Shown here: positions 12,519 to 55,415 of the stretch, one piece after another
Layout: every line of letters begins with the position of its first letter
Position numbering within the stretch: the first letter of the stretch is position 1
Source: Gammaproteobacteria bacterium
Lineage (GTDB): Bacteria; Pseudomonadota; Gammaproteobacteria; Eutrophobiales; Eutrophobiaceae
Assembly: GCA_028819495.1 (NCBI GenBank)
Contig: JAPPLI010000062.1
Location: 1-64,000, forward strand
Direction of reading: 5' to 3'
DNA: 64,000 nucleotides
The notes under the pieces: model-generated
Databases searched by the model: none
Told to the model about the DNA's origin: nothing
What the model saw: the letters and a program-made list of their open reading frames with translations, nothing else
Translations under genes and position numbers: made by a program

Positions 12519-14449
12519 GATCGGGGATTGTACCAGATCGGGGAGCTCCAGGCGCGTTCCTGTATGGTGGGGGCTATGTCTTCGAACAGTTGGTTCCCTT
12601 CCCGCAGGGCTTCCCAGGTGGTCCAGCGGCAGCTCGGGTTTTCCAGTACCCTCAGGTAATAGAACGCGGGTTGGCGCGGGTCGAAATCCGGGTCGCGCCA
12701 CAGGGCTTTCAACTCAACCGCGCCCTTGTCCGCGCTGACGCTGCAATCGCTCAGATCAACGGTGGCGCCGTTGTCCGGGCAACGGCGGGTGGCCGGGTCG
12801 GGGTCCAGGCCGTCGGCGCAAACCGCATCGTATACCTGCTCCCTGGTCCCGCCCTGTTCCAGCCAGCCCTTGACGACCTGGACGCGCTGCAGGTTGACTC
12901 CCTGCGGGTCTTTCATGGCCCAGATGATGAAACCCGGCGCCGCACCCGCGCCGGGCGCCGGCAGGTCGCTTCCCATGGCTACTCCCTTGCCGTAGCCCAG
13001 GGCGGCCGGGTCGGTATCCGTATCGAGCGCGGCCGGGAAGTCCCACCCGGCAAAAAAACGCACGCTGATGCGCGTGCCGCTGGTGGCAAAGGTTTCCCGG
13101 CGTTGCAGCGCGGCAAATATGGCGGCGCGGCTATTCTGCTCCGCCCACACACCGGCCAGTCCGCCGGACCCCAGCACCCGGCTCGCCGCGAATTCCTTTA
13201 TTACAGGCCTGCCCGCGCGCCGCGCCGGGGTGCCGTCTTCAAACCCGTGATGGCCCTGGTAATTGGATTCGTCGGTGCCGCCGGGCGTGCCGTTATGGGT
13301 ATCGGTGCTGCCGATAAAACCAAGCTTGTAGGGGTTCACGTCCAGTTGCCGCTCCAGTTCCAGGCCCAGTTTCAGGGCGTTGCGCACATACATGCCGGGC
13401 GCCAGGCAACCCTGGGACGCGTCATTGCCGGTACAGACCTGCACACAGTCTTCATCCGTGTTTCCCGCCGTGCACAGCGGACGGCGTTCGAACTTCTCGA
13501 AATCACATAATTCGTCCACCGTGCCCACCCCGGTGTGGCATTCCGATTCACCCTTGGCCTGGACGATCTCCACCAGGGGTTCGGTCCTGCTTCGCAGCTT
13601 CGCCCACTGCGGGCTGAGCGGGCTGCCGTCCTCTTTCAAGGCGGGGAACTGCCGGCCCTTGCTCTGGTTGGAATTATGCGGTATCGCCAGGACTTCGCAG
13701 GGGACGGCGCAGGTTTCATGCAACTGCTTCCATAATTGTTCCGGCGTGTTCGCCTCAAAATGACTGGCCGGCAAGACAGGGACCTTATCATTCCCGTAAA
13801 TGACGTTCCTGTGCATGTTATTGCCGTGCGTATTCCCGGTCCACTCGTACCCCACAAAGGTGGTGAACACACCCGGACGGTTGAATTCATGGGCTATATC
13901 CTGTAATTCCCGCCAGGTCAATTTTGCCCGCGCCAGGCAACGGGCATCGTCCGCGCCGCACAGTTCGGGCTCGCGTTGCGGGTCCGGAGACACCACATCG
14001 CGAATTATCAGGTTCCGGTATATCTTCTCTATCAGGCGCTCCTGCCCTGCCTCATTGCGGATGTCACGGCAGATCTCCAATGGGTACGCGGCGCTGGATG
14101 CATCGGTACAGAGCGGCAGTTCACCCAGGTACTCCCCATGGTCCGTCACTGCCGCAAAATCCAGGGGCCGGTCTATGCGCACCTCCCTGCCGCCGGACAG
14201 GACAACCTCTTCCCCCAGGGCAAAACGGTAGGCTTCACGGGGACCGACACGATTGAAATTGACATAACTGTCCAGCGACCAGGATGAATGCACATGCAGG
14301 TCGCCGAAGAACGGAAACCGCTGAACACTTTCCTGCGCAGCCAGGGTTACTGGCAACAGAAAGAATATAATCCGCAGATGACGCAGATGAACGCAGATTA
14401 ATTTTATTTTGTTATACGTCAGCCCCAAGACTGTTGCACGTTGGAACAA
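12515..14449 (-). CDS. DUF3604 domain-containing protein
   Basis: FPFFGDLHVHSSWSLDSYVNFNRVGPREAYRFALGEEV...GYEWTGNTHGNNMHRNVIY. Confidence 0.9.
   Translation of the reverse strand: MFQRATVLGLTYNKIKLICVHLRHLRIIFFLLPVTLAAQESVQRFPFFGDLHVHSSWSLDSYVNFNRVGPREAYRFALGEEVVLSGGREVRIDRPLDFAAVTDHGEYLGELPLCTDASSAAYPLEICRDIRNEAGQERLIEKIYRNLIIRDVVSPDPQREPELCGADDARCLARAKLTWRELQDIAHEFNRPGVFTTFVGYEWTGNTHGNNMHRNVIYGNDKVPVLPASHFEANTPEQLWKQLHETCAVPCEVLAIPHNSNQSKGRQFPALKEDGSPLSPQWAKLRSRTEPLVEIVQAKGESECHTGVGTVDELCDFEKFERRPLCTAGNTDEDCVQVCTGNDASQGCLAPGMYVRNALKLGLELERQLDVNPYKLGFIGSTDTHNGTPGGTDESNYQGHHGFEDGTPARRAGRPVIKEFAASRVLGSGGLAGVWAEQNSRAAIFAALQRRETFATSGTRISVRFFAGWDFPAALDTDTDPAALGYGKGVAMGSDLPAPGAGAAPGFIIWAMKDPQGVNLQRVQVVKGWLEQGGTREQVYDAVCADGLDPDPATRRCPDNGATVDLSDCSVSADKGAVELKALWRDPDFDPRQPAFYYLRVLENPSCRWTTWEALREGNQLFEDIAPTIQERAWSSPIWYNPRS
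14369..14400. repeat. ATCCGCAGATGACGCAGATNAACGCAGAT dispersed repeat copy, overlapping the DUF3604 signal-peptide codons
   Basis: aatccgcagatgacgcagatgaacgcagatta; inverted partner at 14541-14574. Confidence 0.85.
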
Positions 14450-14540
14450 GATTCATCACCCATGAATTATGCAGCATAAAACTCGAAAAAGAATTCTTAT
14501 GTCTGTCGTTTGACAATATCTCCTGAAAAAAATACAAAAA

Positions 14541-14588
14541 TCATCTGCGTTAATCTGCGTCATCTGCGGATAATTTCATCTGCGGATA
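14541..14588. repeat. Inverted copy of the ATCCGCAGATGACGCAGAT repeat, overlapping the 3' end of the adjacent deaminase
   Basis: tcatctgcgttaatctgcgtcatctgcggataatttcatctgcggata. Confidence 0.85.
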
Positions 14589-18148: not shown

Positions 18149-18405
18149 TGAGGCCCGGATAGCTTTTTGATGCGCACCTTCCCTGGTGCGCCCCCTGCGA
18201 GCATCCTTCGGATGTCCAAATCTGTTCCAGACAGATTTGTCAAGACCCTCTGGAAGCCATGGATGGCTGGAAGGGACAAATCGTCAGGACGGACGATTTG
18301 CACGGCGTAAGCCGCCCGAAGGGTTGTGCCCAGGGATGGGCACAATGAACGTACATGGATGTATTTACAGCGTGTCTTGAAAATGCTATGCCAGCCTCAA
18401 ACAGT
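18149..18405 (+). repeat. Modular hairpin repeat element, locus S3 (longest train)
   Basis: Plus-strand hairpins AGCC-ATGGAT-GGCT, CAAATCGTC-AGGACG-GACGATTTG, TTGTGCCC-AGGGAT-GGGCACAA, GTAC-ATGGAT-GTAT; imperfect outer arms (TGAGGCccGGaTAGC... / ...GCTATGCCaGCCTCA). Confidence 0.85.
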
Positions 18406-19987: not shown

Positions 19988-20129
19988 GTTTCTGATTACT
20001 CCGGTATATAAGGGTTTATGTTACATGGTGACATAATCTGTCGGAAAGGCACTGTCGCCCTGCTCCCGTCACAAGTATACTGTTTCTGGTACCCTTTCCA
20101 GTTAATATTGACATGTTCAATAATTTCTG

Positions 20130-22271: not shown

Positions 22272-22506
22272 GTCGGATGAAAGATGGCGGGACAGTATTT
22301 GTAAGAATGTCGCCAGCCAGGATGGCCGGCGATAAAGCGTACAGGGACGTATTCACAGCGTGTCTTGATAAAACACTATCGTCGGATGAAAGATGGCGGG
22401 ACAGTATTTGTAAGAATGTCGCCAGCCAGGATGGCTGGCGATAAAGCGTACAGGGATGTATTCACAGCGTGTCTGGAAAATACTGTCCCGCCATCTTTCA
22501 TCCGAC
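22272..22506 (+). repeat. Modular hairpin repeat element, locus S2 (tandem duplicate) with 29-bp perfect inverted arms
   Basis: GTCGGATGAAAGATGGCGGGACAGTATTT at 22272-22300 and 22381-22409, perfect inverted copy at 22478-22506; core repeated twice. Confidence 0.93.
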
Positions 22507-23204: not shown

Positions 23205-24596
23205 TTATGCCGTCACCGGCAACAGGCTGTCCTCGCCGGCGCATACTTTCTTGATGACCCGGTACGCGATGATGCCGGCGATGATGTTGCCGGTTGCCGC
23301 GCCTGCGAACATGCCTGTTATTCCCCAGATCAGGCCGCCAATATACGCCAGCGGCAGGTATAAGGCAATCAACCTGATGATTATCAGGAACAGGCCGAGC
23401 CTGGGGCGTCTCATTACGTTGAGCGAAACCATGACCAGGATCACCACGGAATGGGCGCCGTAGGTCAGCGGCAATATGTAGATGAAGGTATTGATCACCC
23501 GGATCACTTCGGCGTCCGCGCTGAACGCGGGGGCGATCCAGGGAGAGAACGCCAACAGCAGCAAATAGACTGCGACCTGAAAGACGATACCGAACTTCAG
23601 ACAACCGAACAATGCCTGGCGGGCGCGTTCCCCCTTGCCGGCTCCCAGGTTCTGGCCGATAAACATGGGCAGGGTGGCGGACAGGGCAAAAACAACCATC
23701 AGGCATATTGTCTCTATACGCGCGCCTACCCCGAAACCGGCAACGGCTTCGGCCCCGAAACCGGCTATCATCGCGGTCATGATGGCCGCGGCAAACGGAG
23801 TCATCATGTTGGCAAGCATGGCCGGGACGCCGATTTGCAGCAACTCCTCCCAGTTTTCCCGGATATGGCGCAGGCGCGGCAGGGTAAACAACAGCAGCTT
23901 TTCTCTTACTGCCAGGATATAGACCGCGACGGCGGCCACGGTTGTGGCGGCGATGACGCTGGCGAGCGCCGCCCCCTTCATCCCCATTTCCGGGAATGGA
24001 CCCGGACCGAATATCAATAACGGGTCCAGGGCGAGGTTCATCAACGCCATGAGTGTGGACATCGAAGCGGAAGTCTTCATTGCGCCGATGGCGCGGAACG
24101 TGTTCCCGCATATCACCGCGATCATGATCACGGGCAGGCCGAGGATCAGGACATACATATACTCACTGATGTATGGCAACACCTGGTCCGTCGCGCCCAT
24201 GGCCGAAAAAATGCTTTTGAAGGAAAGAGCGACCAGGACGGCGATAATCACCGACAACAGCAGCGCCAGTATCTGTGCGTCGGTCACGTAGCGGGCGGCC
24301 GCATCATGCCTTGCCTCGCCGACCAGGCGCGAAGTGATTGAACTGATGCCCATGCCTATTCCCAAGGCAATACTGACGAAGATCATGTAAACGGGAATGA
24401 TGAAGCCGATGGCCGCCAACTGGTTTGTCCCCAGCAGGCTGATGAACCAGGTATCGACAATCCCCAGCGTCATCATGGCGATGACGCCCATGATCATGGT
24501 GCCGGTGAGGCGCGTCAGCAACGGGCCTATCGGCTCGGAAGTGATCCTCCGGGTACGCTCTGTTGATCGGGTACTCTTTCCAGGTGATATTGTCAT
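23205..24596 (-). CDS. MATE family efflux transporter
   Basis: MTISPGKSTRSTERTRRITSEPIGPLLTRLTGTMIMGVIAMMTLGIVDTWFISLLGTNQLAAIGFI; start placed at 24596 because upstream codons are repeat-derived. Confidence 0.93.
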   Translation of the reverse strand: MTISPGKSTRSTERTRRITSEPIGPLLTRLTGTMIMGVIAMMTLGIVDTWFISLLGTNQLAAIGFIIPVYMIFVSIALGIGMGISSITSRLVGEARHDAAARYVTDAQILALLLSVIIAVLVALSFKSIFSAMGATDQVLPYISEYMYVLILGLPVIMIAVICGNTFRAIGAMKTSASMSTLMALMNLALDPLLIFGPGPFPEMGMKGAALASVIAATTVAAVAVYILAVREKLLLFTLPRLRHIRENWEELLQIGVPAMLANMMTPFAAAIMTAMIAGFGAEAVAGFGVGARIETICLMVVFALSATLPMFIGQNLGAGKGERARQALFGCLKFGIVFQVAVYLLLLAFSPWIAPAFSADAEVIRVINTFIYILPLTYGAHSVVILVMVSLNVMRRPRLGLFLIIIRLIALYLPLAYIGGLIWGITGMFAGAATGNIIAGIIAYRVIKKVCAGEDSLLPVTA

Positions 24597-24833
24597 GTTC
24601 AGCGGGTTGGGAAGCGGTTGAGCGCAAGGCGCGCCGTGCAGGGAATGGCGAGTCCTTGCCAAGCGGTGCAACGCCGCGGGCGACCGCTTCCCGGCCCGCC
24701 CGCAGGGAGCCAAGCAGCGGCTTCAATCCGGCGTTGCAGTCCTTGACAAGGGCGCGCCATTCTCTGCGGACTGCGCCTTGTCTTGAAGCCGCTGCTTGGC
24801 TCTGAACATGACAATATCACCTGGAAAGAGTAC
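24571..24833. repeat. Nested inverted-repeat element (S6) with 32-bp perfect arms containing the MATE gene start codon
   Basis: 24571-24602 and 24802-24833 are perfect inverted copies; inside, two divergent inverted copies of a shared core, one bracketed by 18-bp arms (24709-24726 / 24783-24800). Confidence 0.92.
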
Positions 24834-26938: not shown

Positions 26939-27833
26939 GGCTCTCCGCCAGTTCGACCTGGCGCTGGCGCTCGCTGAAGCGCCGCCGTTGTTCCGGAGTC
27001 AAATCATCATGGCAGCGCGGGCAATACACGCCCGGCAGGTATTTTTCGGAGGCCATGTCATCCTGGTTCAGGGGCCGGCGGCAGGCGTAACATTGTTCGT
27101 GTTCCCCCTCCGCAAGCTCGTGGTCGACGGCGACCCGGCTGTCGAAGACAAAACACTCCCCCTCCCAGCGGCTGTGATCGCGGTCAACTTTTTCCAGGTA
27201 GTTCAGGATGCCACCCTGTAACTGCACGACTTCCCTGAACCCCCGGGACAGCAGGTACGAGGAGGCTTTTTCGCAGCGGATACCCCCGGTACAGTACATG
27301 GCGATCCTGGTGTGTTGCTCCGGGTTAAGGTTTTTTTCAACATAATCCGGAAACTCGCGAAATGTCCCGGTATCCGGCGCCACGGCGTTTTTGAAACCGC
27401 CGATACCGGTTTCATACTCGTTTCGAACGTCCAGCACCAATGTATCGGGACGGGAGATCTCCGCATTCCAGTCTTCCGGTTTCACGTACTCGCCCGTGAG
27501 ATGTTCCGGGTCGACACCCGCTATGCCCAGGGAGACGATTTCCTGTTTGAGCTTGACCTTCATACGGTGAAAAGGAACCCCCGCGGCGAGTGACTCCTTG
27601 TGCGCCAGGCCGGCAAAGCGGGGTTCCGAGCGCAGGTAGTCCAGGATACCGTCAATCCCTTCCCTGCTGCCGGCGACAGTACCATTAATGCCTTCGGGCG
27701 CCAGCAGCAAGGTCCCCTTGAGCCGCAGTTCGCGGCAGCGTTCCAGCAGGGGCTGTCTCAATTCGCGGAAATCCGGCAGCCGGACGAACTTGTACAAGGC
27801 TGCAATAACAATTTCATTACTTGATATGTTCAT
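26910..27833 (-). CDS. trhO: Rhodanese-related tRNA uridine(34) hydroxylase (TrhO/YceA)
   Basis: KGTLLLAPEGINGTVAGSREGID...MYCTGGIRCEKASSYLLSRGFREVVQLQGGILNYLE. Confidence 0.94.
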   Translation of the reverse strand: MNISSNEIVIAALYKFVRLPDFRELRQPLLERCRELRLKGTLLLAPEGINGTVAGSREGIDGILDYLRSEPRFAGLAHKESLAAGVPFHRMKVKLKQEIVSLGIAGVDPEHLTGEYVKPEDWNAEISRPDTLVLDVRNEYETGIGGFKNAVAPDTGTFREFPDYVEKNLNPEQHTRIAMYCTGGIRCEKASSYLLSRGFREVVQLQGGILNYLEKVDRDHSRWEGECFVFDSRVAVDHELAEGEHEQCYACRRPLNQDDMASEKYLPGVYCPRCHDDLTPEQRRRFSERQRQVELAESRGEQHIGTA

Positions 27834-27837
27834 ATTT

Positions 27838-27956
27838 TATCCGCAGATGACGCAGATTTACGCGGATGTAAAACAGGTTTTTAAAATAGTATGGTTTGTA
27901 CGAATATTGAATATTATATTCTTAATCTGCGCTAATCTGCGTCATCTGCGGATAGA
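27838..27956. repeat. Inverted pair of the ATCCGCAGATGACGCAGAT repeat (REPIN-like)
   Basis: atccgcagatgacgcagatttacgcggat ... aatctgcgctaatctgcgtcatctgcggata. Confidence 0.88.
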
Positions 27957-27959
27957 ACT

Positions 27960-45123: not shown

Positions 45124-47166
45124 ATGATTGATCCGATCACATTTTCGATCATCCGTCACCGCCTGTTCCGGGTCGTGGACGAGGCAGTGATTACCCTGAA
45201 GAACGTATCGGGCAGCGCCATCACCAACGAAGGCCACGACCTGATGGTGTCCCTGTACCGGGCGGACGGCACCCTGCTGATGGGCGGCGTCGGGTTCCTG
45301 CACCACCTGACCAGCGCCGCGGAGGCGTGCAAGTCCATCATCCGGCGCTTCCGGGGAGACATCCACGCCGGCGACGTGTTCCTGCTGAACGATCCCTACA
45401 CCGCGGCCCTGCATACCTCGGACGTCTACCTGGTGGCGCCCATCCATTACCGGGGAGAACTGGTGGCCTGGAGCGCCTGTTTCGTACACGTGTACGATAT
45501 CGGCGCCACCAACCCCGGCGGCTTCTGCCCCGATGCGGAAAACATCTATACGGAAGGCTTCAGTTCTCCGGGGATACGGCTGGTGGGGAAGGGCGAGATC
45601 AACCGGGCCGTCATGGACACCTTCCTCAACATGGTGCGTTCCCCCGACATGGTGGCGCTGGACCTGAATTCCATGATCGCCTGCAACAACGTCGCCCGGG
45701 AACGGATGCTGGCCCTCATCGAAAAATACGGATTCGAGACCGTCGATGAGACCTGCAAAACACTGATCGCCAGGTCTGAAGAGAAACTGCGCGCCCGGCT
45801 GCGGGAACTGCCCGACGGCCAATGGCAATCACGCCAGTACCTGAGTGTGAAGGACGAGATCTACCGGGTCGAACTGACCATGACCAAGCGGGACGATTCG
45901 CTTATTTTCGATTTCAGCGGGTCCAGCGAGCAGAGCCGCTATGCCATCAATTGCACCAGGTGGGCCTCCCTGGGCGGGCTGTTCGCGCCCCTGTTCCCGT
46001 TGCTGTGCTACGACATCACCTGGAATGAAGGCGTGATCAGTCCCATCACCATGATTGCGCCGGAGGGGACCATCGTGAACTGCACGCGCCCGGCGCCGGT
46101 TTCCGTCGCCACCGTGGGAGCCATACAATCCGTCAACAACGCGGCCTGCACTACCATCGGCAAGCTGCTCAGCGCCAGTGAAAAATACGCCCCGGAAGCC
46201 TCGGCCGTGTGGCACGCCAACCATTTCGCGGTGTTCCTGTTCGGTCAGAACCAGCATAACAAACTGGCGATCGGCATCCTCACCGAGACCTTCGCCGGGG
46301 CCGGCGGCGCCCGGGCCTGGGCGGACGGCATCGAGGTGGGCGGGGAGATCCCGAACCCCATCTCGCGCATGGCCAACGTGGAGACCGTCGAATACACCTT
46401 CCCGATCCGCTACCTGTATCGCCGGCGTCTCAAGGATTCCGGCGGCCCGGGGCGTTACCGCGGCGGCGTCGGCATGGAATTGTCCTTCGTGCCGCACGAT
46501 GCGCCGGACGGCGGGATGCATTACGTGGTCTCCGGCAAAGGTTCGAAGTTCCCCATGAGCGAAGGCCTGGCCGGCGGCTATCCGGGATCGCCCAATGCCT
46601 ACATATGGGTCAAGAACAATAGAGCAAAAGAGGACGCAATACCTGGCGAACAGCAGGAGGTAGACTGGGGTGTATTCCCGCTGATGGGCAAGGACGCGCT
46701 TTATGTCAGGTGGAATGGCGGCGGCGGCTACGGCGATCCCCTGTCGCGCCCGCCGCAGGACGTGGCCCGCGACATACGGGACGGCCTGACTTCCCCGGAA
46801 TTTGCAGAATCAGTATACGGCGTAATTATCGATACCGGTACAGGGGAAGCAGAGCCATCCCTTACAGAGAAAAAGAGAACCGAACTGGTAGCGCAACGAA
46901 AGAACGGCGGGCAATCCGCGCCTGTTGCAGGCGCGCCCGTCACCTGCAAACACTGCGGTCAGAGCCTGGGGGGCACGGACGGCAACTGGAAGGAAAGCGC
47001 GAGTGTGCAGGAAACGCCCATGCAAAACCTGGGAGGGCCCTATTCCAGCGGCGGCGACGTATTGCTGCGCTCGTTCTCATGCCCGGGCTGCGGCATCCTG
47101 GTGGATACGGAGACTGCCATGCAAGGCGACCCGTACCTGAATGACAGATTATTAATCCGCAGATGA
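45124..47166 (+). CDS. Hydantoinase/oxoprolinase subunit B with acetone carboxylase gamma-like C-terminal tail
   Basis: MIDPITFSIIRHRLFRVVDEAVITLKNVSGSAITNEGHDLMVSLY...; C-term VTCKHCGQSLG...FSCPGCGILVDTETAMQGDPYLND; stop codon supplied by a repeat. Confidence 0.9.
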   Translation: MIDPITFSIIRHRLFRVVDEAVITLKNVSGSAITNEGHDLMVSLYRADGTLLMGGVGFLHHLTSAAEACKSIIRRFRGDIHAGDVFLLNDPYTAALHTSDVYLVAPIHYRGELVAWSACFVHVYDIGATNPGGFCPDAENIYTEGFSSPGIRLVGKGEINRAVMDTFLNMVRSPDMVALDLNSMIACNNVARERMLALIEKYGFETVDETCKTLIARSEEKLRARLRELPDGQWQSRQYLSVKDEIYRVELTMTKRDDSLIFDFSGSSEQSRYAINCTRWASLGGLFAPLFPLLCYDITWNEGVISPITMIAPEGTIVNCTRPAPVSVATVGAIQSVNNAACTTIGKLLSASEKYAPEASAVWHANHFAVFLFGQNQHNKLAIGILTETFAGAGGARAWADGIEVGGEIPNPISRMANVETVEYTFPIRYLYRRRLKDSGGPGRYRGGVGMELSFVPHDAPDGGMHYVVSGKGSKFPMSEGLAGGYPGSPNAYIWVKNNRAKEDAIPGEQQEVDWGVFPLMGKDALYVRWNGGGGYGDPLSRPPQDVARDIRDGLTSPEFAESVYGVIIDTGTGEAEPSLTEKKRTELVAQRKNGGQSAPVAGAPVTCKHCGQSLGGTDGNWKESASVQETPMQNLGGPYSSGGDVLLRSFSCPGCGILVDTETAMQGDPYLNDRLLIRR

Positions 47167-47231
47167 CGCAGATTTACGCAGATTATTTTTTGATTCATTT
47201 TATCTGCGCTAATCTGCGTCATCTGCGGATA
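47154..47231. repeat. Inverted pair of the ATCCGCAGATGACGCAGAT repeat (REPIN-like hairpin)
   Basis: aatccgcagatgacgcagatttacgcagatt ... tatctgcgctaatctgcgtcatctgcggat. Confidence 0.9.
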
Positions 47232-47247
47232 AAACAGGTAAAGTGAT

Positions 47248-53978: not shown

Positions 53979-54083
53979 CAGGTTGGCATAGCATTTTCAA
54001 GACACGCTGTAAATACGTCCATGTACGCTCCCTTCCGGCCATCCATGGCCTCCAGAGGGTCTTGAAAATGCTATGCCAACCTG
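53979..54083 (-). repeat. Modular hairpin repeat element, locus S4, with 25-bp perfect inverted arms
   Basis: CAGGTTGGCATAGCATTTTCAAGAC (53979-54003) / GTCTTGAAAATGCTATGCCAACCTG (54059-54083); minus-strand hairpins GGCC-ATGGAT-GGCC and GTAC-ATGGAC-GTAT. Confidence 0.93.
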
Positions 54084-54095
54084 TCTGAGTGCGTA

Positions 54096-55247
54096 TTATG
54101 AGATGCAAAAGTGCGCGATCATTTTTTCCAGCAGGTTGTGCATGGGTTGGATGCGGTCCTGCTCGATGTATTCATTGGCCTGGTGCGCCTGGTCGATGTC
54201 GCCCGGCCCCAGCACCACCGTGTCCATCCCGAGGGAATTCAGGTAAGGCCCTTCCGTCCCGAAATTGACCGTCCCGGCGTCGTGGCCGCTGAGATTCTCC
54301 GCCACCCTGACGATCTCGCTCTGGGGATCGGTTTCCATGGGCGGCGTGCCGGGGAAGATTTCGTCAAACTCCACGTCGAGCCCGCGTCCGGCCAGCGCCT
54401 GTTCCACAGTCCGGCGCAAACGGCTGCGCACATCGCTTATCTCCATGCCCGGCAGCAACCTGAGGTCGATCTTCAGTTCACATTCGGCGCAGATCCGGTT
54501 CGGACTGTCGCCCCCCTGGATGGAACCGAAATTCAGGGTGGGGACCGGCACATCGAACTTGCTGTTGGAGAAGCTCTCCTGAAGTTGCCCGCGCCATTGC
54601 AGCAGGGATTTCATGACCTCATGCATGCCTTCCATGGCGTTATTGCCCAGGGCCGGGTTGCTGGCGTGTCCGGCCCGCCCCCTGAGGGTGATGGTCTCGA
54701 TCATGACCCCCTTGTGCATGATGACGGGTTGCAGGCCCGTCGGTTCGCCGATGAGCGCATGGCGTCCCAGGCCCCTGTTCGCATCGACCAGGGCCTTGGC
54801 GCCGGCCATGGTGCATTCTTCGTCGCAGGTTGCGAGCAGGGTGACGGGACGTTTTATCTTTTTCAGGTCGAGGGACTGCAATACCTGCATCACGATGGGG
54901 AAAAAGCACTTCATGTCCGATGTGCCAAGACCGTAATAACGGCCGTCTTTCTCGGTCAGCCTGAAGGGGTCCTGATGCCAGGCGGACTCGTTATACGGTA
55001 CCGTATCGGTATGCCCGGACAACACCAGGCCGCCGCCGCCGCTGCCCAGGCAGGCCACCAGGTTGACCTTGTCCGGCCTGCCGCCGACGGGCATGGTCTC
55101 GATACTGAAACCCAGGTCTGCAAACCAGTTCGCAAGCAGTTCCACCGCGGGAAGATTGCCCTGGTCATGGCGCGGGTCGATGCTGCTTACCGTCGGCGCC
55201 GCGACCAGCGCGGCGAAGGACTCTTTGAATGAAGGTAGTGTTATCAT
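54096..55247 (-). CDS. argE: Acetylornithine deacetylase
   Basis: LLANWFADLGFSIETMPVGG...LVLSGHTDTVPYNESAWHQDPF...TCDEECTMAGAKAL; start at 55247 because upstream codons are repeat-derived. Confidence 0.93.
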   Translation of the reverse strand: MITLPSFKESFAALVAAPTVSSIDPRHDQGNLPAVELLANWFADLGFSIETMPVGGRPDKVNLVACLGSGGGGLVLSGHTDTVPYNESAWHQDPFRLTEKDGRYYGLGTSDMKCFFPIVMQVLQSLDLKKIKRPVTLLATCDEECTMAGAKALVDANRGLGRHALIGEPTGLQPVIMHKGVMIETITLRGRAGHASNPALGNNAMEGMHEVMKSLLQWRGQLQESFSNSKFDVPVPTLNFGSIQGGDSPNRICAECELKIDLRLLPGMEISDVRSRLRRTVEQALAGRGLDVEFDEIFPGTPPMETDPQSEIVRVAENLSGHDAGTVNFGTEGPYLNSLGMDTVVLGPGDIDQAHQANEYIEQDRIQPMHNLLEKMIAHFCIS

Positions 55248-55251
55248 AATA

Positions 55252-55283
55252 AATCCGCAGATGACGCAGATTAACGCAGATGA
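55252..55283. repeat. Single copy of the ATCCGCAGATGACGCAGATTAACGCAGAT repeat just upstream of argE
   Basis: aatccgcagatgacgcagattaacgcagatga. Confidence 0.85.
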
Positions 55284-55415
55284 AAATGATTTAATAGACT
55301 TTTTCCGTTCGCCCTCCCCATTGTCAAGGGAGTACGGGTACTTTTGCAACAGGTCTGTCGTCGTTCAGGGACACAGCACAAATTCACAATCAATACACAT
55401 CCAGGAATAACATCA

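Follow-up and report, generated by a model that had tools for sequence, protein, structure and literature searches.

A probable MITE-like element in a gammaproteobacterial genome carries two oppositely oriented hairpins with conserved loops and freely changing stems

Taken as one joint explanation, it is judged reasonably probable that positions 24571-24833 of the analysed stretch of gammaproteobacterial DNA (64,000 nucleotides, hereafter the window) are a single copy of a MITE-like element which is non-autonomous and inserts at TA, with 32-bp TIRs around two oppositely oriented hairpins, that its mobility in trans is of the IS5 type and that the hairpins function as single strands in folded form, most likely as RNA. 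The hairpins belong to a family which keeps its folded shape and its loop motifs, while the stem sequences change freely. As stated by the original prediction, the outer arms are complementary at 32 of 32 positions. The left TIR (24571-24602, + strand) belongs to subfamily A (GTACTCTTTCCAGGTGATATTGTCATGTTCAG), the right TIR (24802-24833, − strand) is its perfect inverted copy, and each of them includes a TA (24572-24573 and 24831-24832, respectively) as the likely target duplication. The first hairpin, H1 (24603-24698), has its core in sense on the + strand and was matched by the covariance model R1 with 84.8 bits (E = 4.6e-18). According to the hairpin alignment it is composed, on the + strand, of an outer stem P1 (24603-24624/24677-24698) and a core at 24625-24676; the segments 24602-24625 and 24676-24699 are 79% complementary. 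The spacer CCGCAGGG (24699-24706, no strand assigned), which was read in the sequence, separates H1 from the second hairpin, H2 (24707-24802), whose core is in sense on the − strand (R1: 94.4 bits, E = 2.2e-20). In most related elements the hairpins are separated by a spacer of the CCNNNGGG type. H2 includes a variable 20-bp stem and overlaps the right TIR with its final base. This inner stem (24707-24726/24783-24802) had been described as perfect over 18 bp; it is indeed perfect, yet its length is 20 bp (20/20). The two inverted and diverged copies of one core which had been noticed between the arms were recovered as well (52 nt each, 24625-24676 and 24729-24780, 77% complementary). For the entire element a fold of −169.4 kcal/mol is predicted, compared to a mean of −97.3 for shuffled sequences (z = −17.3).

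The arms had initially been taken as private to this locus, namely as a gene's own start which had been duplicated in inverted orientation, with a nested repeat in between. Although the coordinates and the perfect arms are real, this explanation is almost certainly wrong and was rejected, since these arms are found at numerous further loci as well as in sister species and since neither of them is present at an empty orthologous site. A search with H1 in the window's own genome yielded many copies, and the aligned copies had the whole 263-bp element in common, outer arms included, so that the arms are a conserved part of the repeat family genome-wide. TIR matches in this genome amounted to 27 in forward and 29 in reverse orientation, numbers that are lower bounds and come from an assembly often broken at the element repeat; contigs frequently end inside the element, which is expected of a repeat in a fragmented assembly. 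Both the 32-bp arms and the GGGAAGCGGT stem have many copies in this genome and genus, and the outer arm was also present in five of six sister species. Comparison of filled and empty sister loci revealed that the insertion is polymorphic among relatives: the orthologous site in G006, with flanks 99.5% and 99.0% identical to those of the window, is empty, whereas G001 (flanks about 92% identical) has the element at the orthologous site. As neither arm is found in the G006 orthologue, both arms belong to the insertion. The junction sequences differ slightly from the empty site, and the target duplication of the window copy is therefore not cleanly readable. With a length of 263 bp (<500 bp), no transposase gene, multiple copies and TIRs common to these copies, the element has the features of a MITE. 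At the same intergenic site, locus L210 (G004) exhibits a degraded TIR-like stretch (CAGCCTGATATTGTCCGG), which is perhaps the scar of an old excision. Within the window, the family has left a second trace, a solitary subfamily C TIR (20090-20120, + strand) with three mismatches to the TIR pattern and no partner end nearby, which lies just upstream of a gene.

The prediction that a MATE transporter gene has its start codon inside the left arm proved correct. The coding sequence of this efflux transporter (23205-24596, − strand; TIGR00797, E = 1.7e-61) begins there, and the left TIR contributes its ATG (24596-24594) as well as its first codons (MTISPGKST). This start is missing in the empty-site relative G006, and it was thus the element that supplied the start and not the gene whose start was duplicated. 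Similarly, open frames run outward from the TIR ends of subfamilies A and C. In 13 of 63 ends the frame comprises 80 aa or more, and several of these frames resemble real proteins with an added N-terminus, e.g., M(A/T/S)ISPGKST. The element thereby provides start codons to host genes, the MATE transporter included. An ATG together with about nine codons from subfamily A or C ends was observed in the window (24596-24570) and at loci L043, L197, L178, L012, and L053. Genes downstream of such start-supplying ends encode, besides the MATE transporter in the window, a signal-peptide protein (L043), a KsgA-like protein (L197) and a transporter-like protein (L178).

Each hairpin has two stems whose sequence is free, one of 22 bp and one of 6 bp. 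A conserved internal loop (CAAGGCR/AACRC) separates the two stems, and another one (GCNG/CAAG) lies between the 6-bp stem and a variable tip, which can be AATGG/CCTTG or perfectly paired as a stem. Conservation is strongest in the two internal loops. In the main set of 33 diverse hairpins, which were chosen for their loop sequence irrespective of stem pairing, the outer stem had a constant length of 22 bp, and the covariation score was 0.754 compared to 0.177 for shuffled and at most 0.15 for slid versions. Paired cells accounted for 91.3% in this set. Two-sided changes were found in 27 of 36 pairs, and two-sided changes with pairing kept were seen in all 22 outer-stem pairs and in five of six inner-stem pairs, counts which include relatedness among the sequences. 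A replication set of 20 separately fetched loci reached a score of 1.048 (shuffled: 0.216); as these loci were found with the covariance model, this set is not fully independent. Copies of the window element likewise differ in the inner stem, with both stem arms changing together, and in 58 of 58 two-hairpin elements the stems of H1 and H2 were unrelated to each other. The idea that conserved cores sit in unrelated stems, as the reverse of an ordinary transposon, hence holds between element families, between H1 and H2 and with respect to the conserved interior cores, but not for the 32-bp arms, which are conserved TIRs and thus the normal conserved ends of a transposon.

This double-hairpin module is widespread and apparently so far undescribed as a structured part of MITE-like elements. 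The covariance model detected the hairpin in 79 of 274 gammaproteobacterial genomes from 65 genera (over a quarter of the sampled species), and across the phylum in 54 of 299 genomes, with matches outside the class coming mostly from one family. The exact core pattern occurred in at least 117 stretches of public genomes, those listed being mostly from Gammaproteobacteria. The outer arms of such core-bearing stretches fall into unrelated classes (CTAGTACTC.., CTAGTGGGCC.., TTAACCCGG.., CTAAGAC.., GGGTCTGTTGACG.., GGGARCCTCTGATYAA..), and across these TIR classes the hairpin pair, the spacing and the total length (mostly 263-287 bp) are constant. Versions with only one hairpin exist as well. The core pattern was not found in viral contigs, and the window element gave no match in phages or plasmids; a Stutzerimonas relative matched four plasmid records. 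That the hairpins represent a known structured RNA of Rfam was rejected, as Rfam 15 yielded no match near the family gathering score for the window and 11 related loci. Literature searches by DNA string and keyword, with most of the subscription literature outside their reach, gave nothing relevant on a published repeat consensus.

The structure of each hairpin is maintained on its own core-sense strand. Among the imperfect pairs on this strand, G·T exceeded A·C by 66 to 16 in the outer stem and by 12 to 1 in the inner stem (p about 2e-10), and a second hairpin set exhibited 24 G·T versus 5 A·C. As the core-sense strands of H1 and H2 are opposite strands, H2 can also be read on the strand of H1, where the bias is reversed, with A·C over G·T at 18 versus 1 and 34 versus 15. 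For the TIRs no significant bias was detected among the imperfect pairs (G·T 39 versus A·C 26, p = 0.14). The predicted RNA fold was more stable in sense orientation for 29 of the 33 hairpins. A pair which is kept only in double-stranded DNA should decay equally to G·T and A·C, and the G·T excess in the hairpins is therefore a sign of a single strand; as the bias flips inside one element, asymmetry of replication or transcription does not explain it. These observations suggest that the TIRs serve as double-stranded transposase sites and that the hairpins function as single strands in a folded state, RNA being the most likely kind. RNA would be the simplest single strand; single-stranded DNA could also favor G·T over A·C. 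The strand-specific wobble test may be a cheap and general way of separating single-strand selection from the maintenance of double-stranded palindromes.

With regard to mobility, the complete genome G157 contains 22 near-identical copies of a related, recently expanded family. Nine of the 11 copies listed have TA at both ends, and in the other two one end adjoins repeated, IS-like sequence. At loci L257 and L262 of this genome, an IS-like end starting with GGCCTGTTAACAC adjoins one element end, and near 2.48 Mb an IS5-family gene lies beside another element copy adjoined by GGCCTGTTAACAC. One TIR class bounds IS5_3 transposase genes in plasmids, and for another there is a match to the ends of an IS5_4 element of G157, which are flanked by TA. 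No transposase with TIRs of the window class was found, nor an autonomous copy with these TIRs in the genus, and no autonomous copy with the CTAAGAC TIR was found in G157. As there is no partner for the TIR class of the window, it is by analogy that an IS5-type transposase may be considered to move the window element in trans. A partner of the IS630 or Tc1-mariner type was rejected: the IS630 present in multiple copies in G157 differs in its TIR, and no IS630 element was detected in the window's own genome.

In the proposed mechanism, an IS5-type transposase would move the element by acting in trans on the double-stranded TIRs, and the hairpins would work as folded single strands, most likely within read-through RNA. 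As the hairpins are inverted, the one nearest to the 5′ end of a transcript is in sense, whichever way the element lands. A host factor would probably recognize the two conserved loops and might function in RNA processing, decay or transcription passage, making insertions tolerable, and the differing stems of H1 and H2 would stop the two hairpins from pairing with each other. It counts against this mechanism that opposite strands are required for H1 and H2 to act, and that hence only one of them is in sense per transcript. A more far-reaching reading, to which somewhat less than even credence is given, is that IS5-type MITEs of Gammaproteobacteria carry, as an inverted pair, an undescribed class of structured RNA (free stems of 22 and 6 bp, two conserved loops), so that each insertion would put one functional hairpin close to the 5′ end of every crossing transcript, and that elements with differing transposase ends have kept the module or exchanged it for work on the host RNA machinery and not for transposition.

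Alternatively, single-stranded DNA might be the active form of the hairpins, e.g., on the lagging strand at a replication fork, with a host or transposition protein recognizing the loops. This is regarded as unlikely, although the strand-specific pairing bias and the inverted symmetry fit it as well as they fit RNA and although the elements amplify, as evident from the copies in G157. The IS5-type transposons matching two of the TIR classes are of the DDE type, with TIRs and TA duplications, and DDE-type IS5 transposons are not known to need a single-stranded intermediate. Furthermore, no hairpin was detected by R1 in those IS-bearing loci that were tested, and a stem length of 22 bp is slightly closer to two turns of A-form RNA than of B-form DNA, which is a weak argument. 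That the hairpins have no selected function at all, with template switching or repair in palindromes copying one arm onto the other and the loops being inherited passengers, appears quite improbable. Palindromes are known for self-correction, and within single copies the TIRs likewise tend to agree with each other, which both speak in favor of such a process. However, double-stranded self-correction should leave equal amounts of G·T and A·C, whereas the bias of the hairpins is strong and reversed between H1 and H2 and that of the TIRs is not significant; the second hairpin set argues in the same direction, as does the persistence of the conserved loops over 65 genera and several TIR classes.

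The usual view of MITEs is that of empty TIR pairs. The interior of the present element is under strong structural constraint in at least 65 genera and several TIR classes, and the idea that MITE parasites carry an RNA device which makes their insertion tolerable is directly testable. Like bacterial MITEs of IS5-family transposons, the element is shorter than 300 bp, has TIRs and no transposase gene and is multi-copy and intergenic. It also shares with them the TA duplication (in the G157 family) and, for two element classes, TIRs that match IS5_3 and IS5_4 transposons. Unlike in these MITEs, the interior is, as far as tested, not IS-derived, and a conserved, strongly covarying inverted hairpin pair is common to unrelated TIR classes. 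Correia/NEMIS and ERIC are palindromic intergenic elements which enter transcripts and can be processing sites; we know of no double-hairpin module with conserved internal loops in either of them, and they were set apart by their descriptions. According to the available part of the source, the transcripts of the gammaproteobacterial MITEs QMITE1 and QMITE2 of Coxiella form long and stable folds, and the insertions of these MITEs, like the one in the window, overlap with genes; QMITE1 is described there as having no orthologues in other genomes (PMC5896051). Their lengths and repeats differ from those of the present element, and a pair of hairpins with conserved loops and free stems is not reported for them in that part (PMC5896051). 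REP/BIME sequences with their RAYT transposases (cf. PMC2817692) resemble the element in being small repeated hairpins of alternating orientation. They were set apart by description, as the present element has long TIRs and TA duplications and as two of the TIR classes match DDE-type IS5 and not Y1 transposases.

The elements sit tightly between genes. The orientation of these genes equals the background (43:15:14 versus 97:35:35), for which reason terminator- or operon-specific siting was rejected, and the gene context exhibits no preference pointing to a role at the transcript level. The window contains further repeats. A dispersed inverted repeat (ATCCGCAGATGACGCAGAT..) is present in four places (14361-14576, 27830-27958, 47146-47235, and 55244-55286), and another repeat family (TTTTCAAGACACGCTGTRAATACGTCC..) occurs at 1346-1423, 18237-18397, 22272-22484, and 53979-54083, including a 103-bp tandem pair at 22272-22483.
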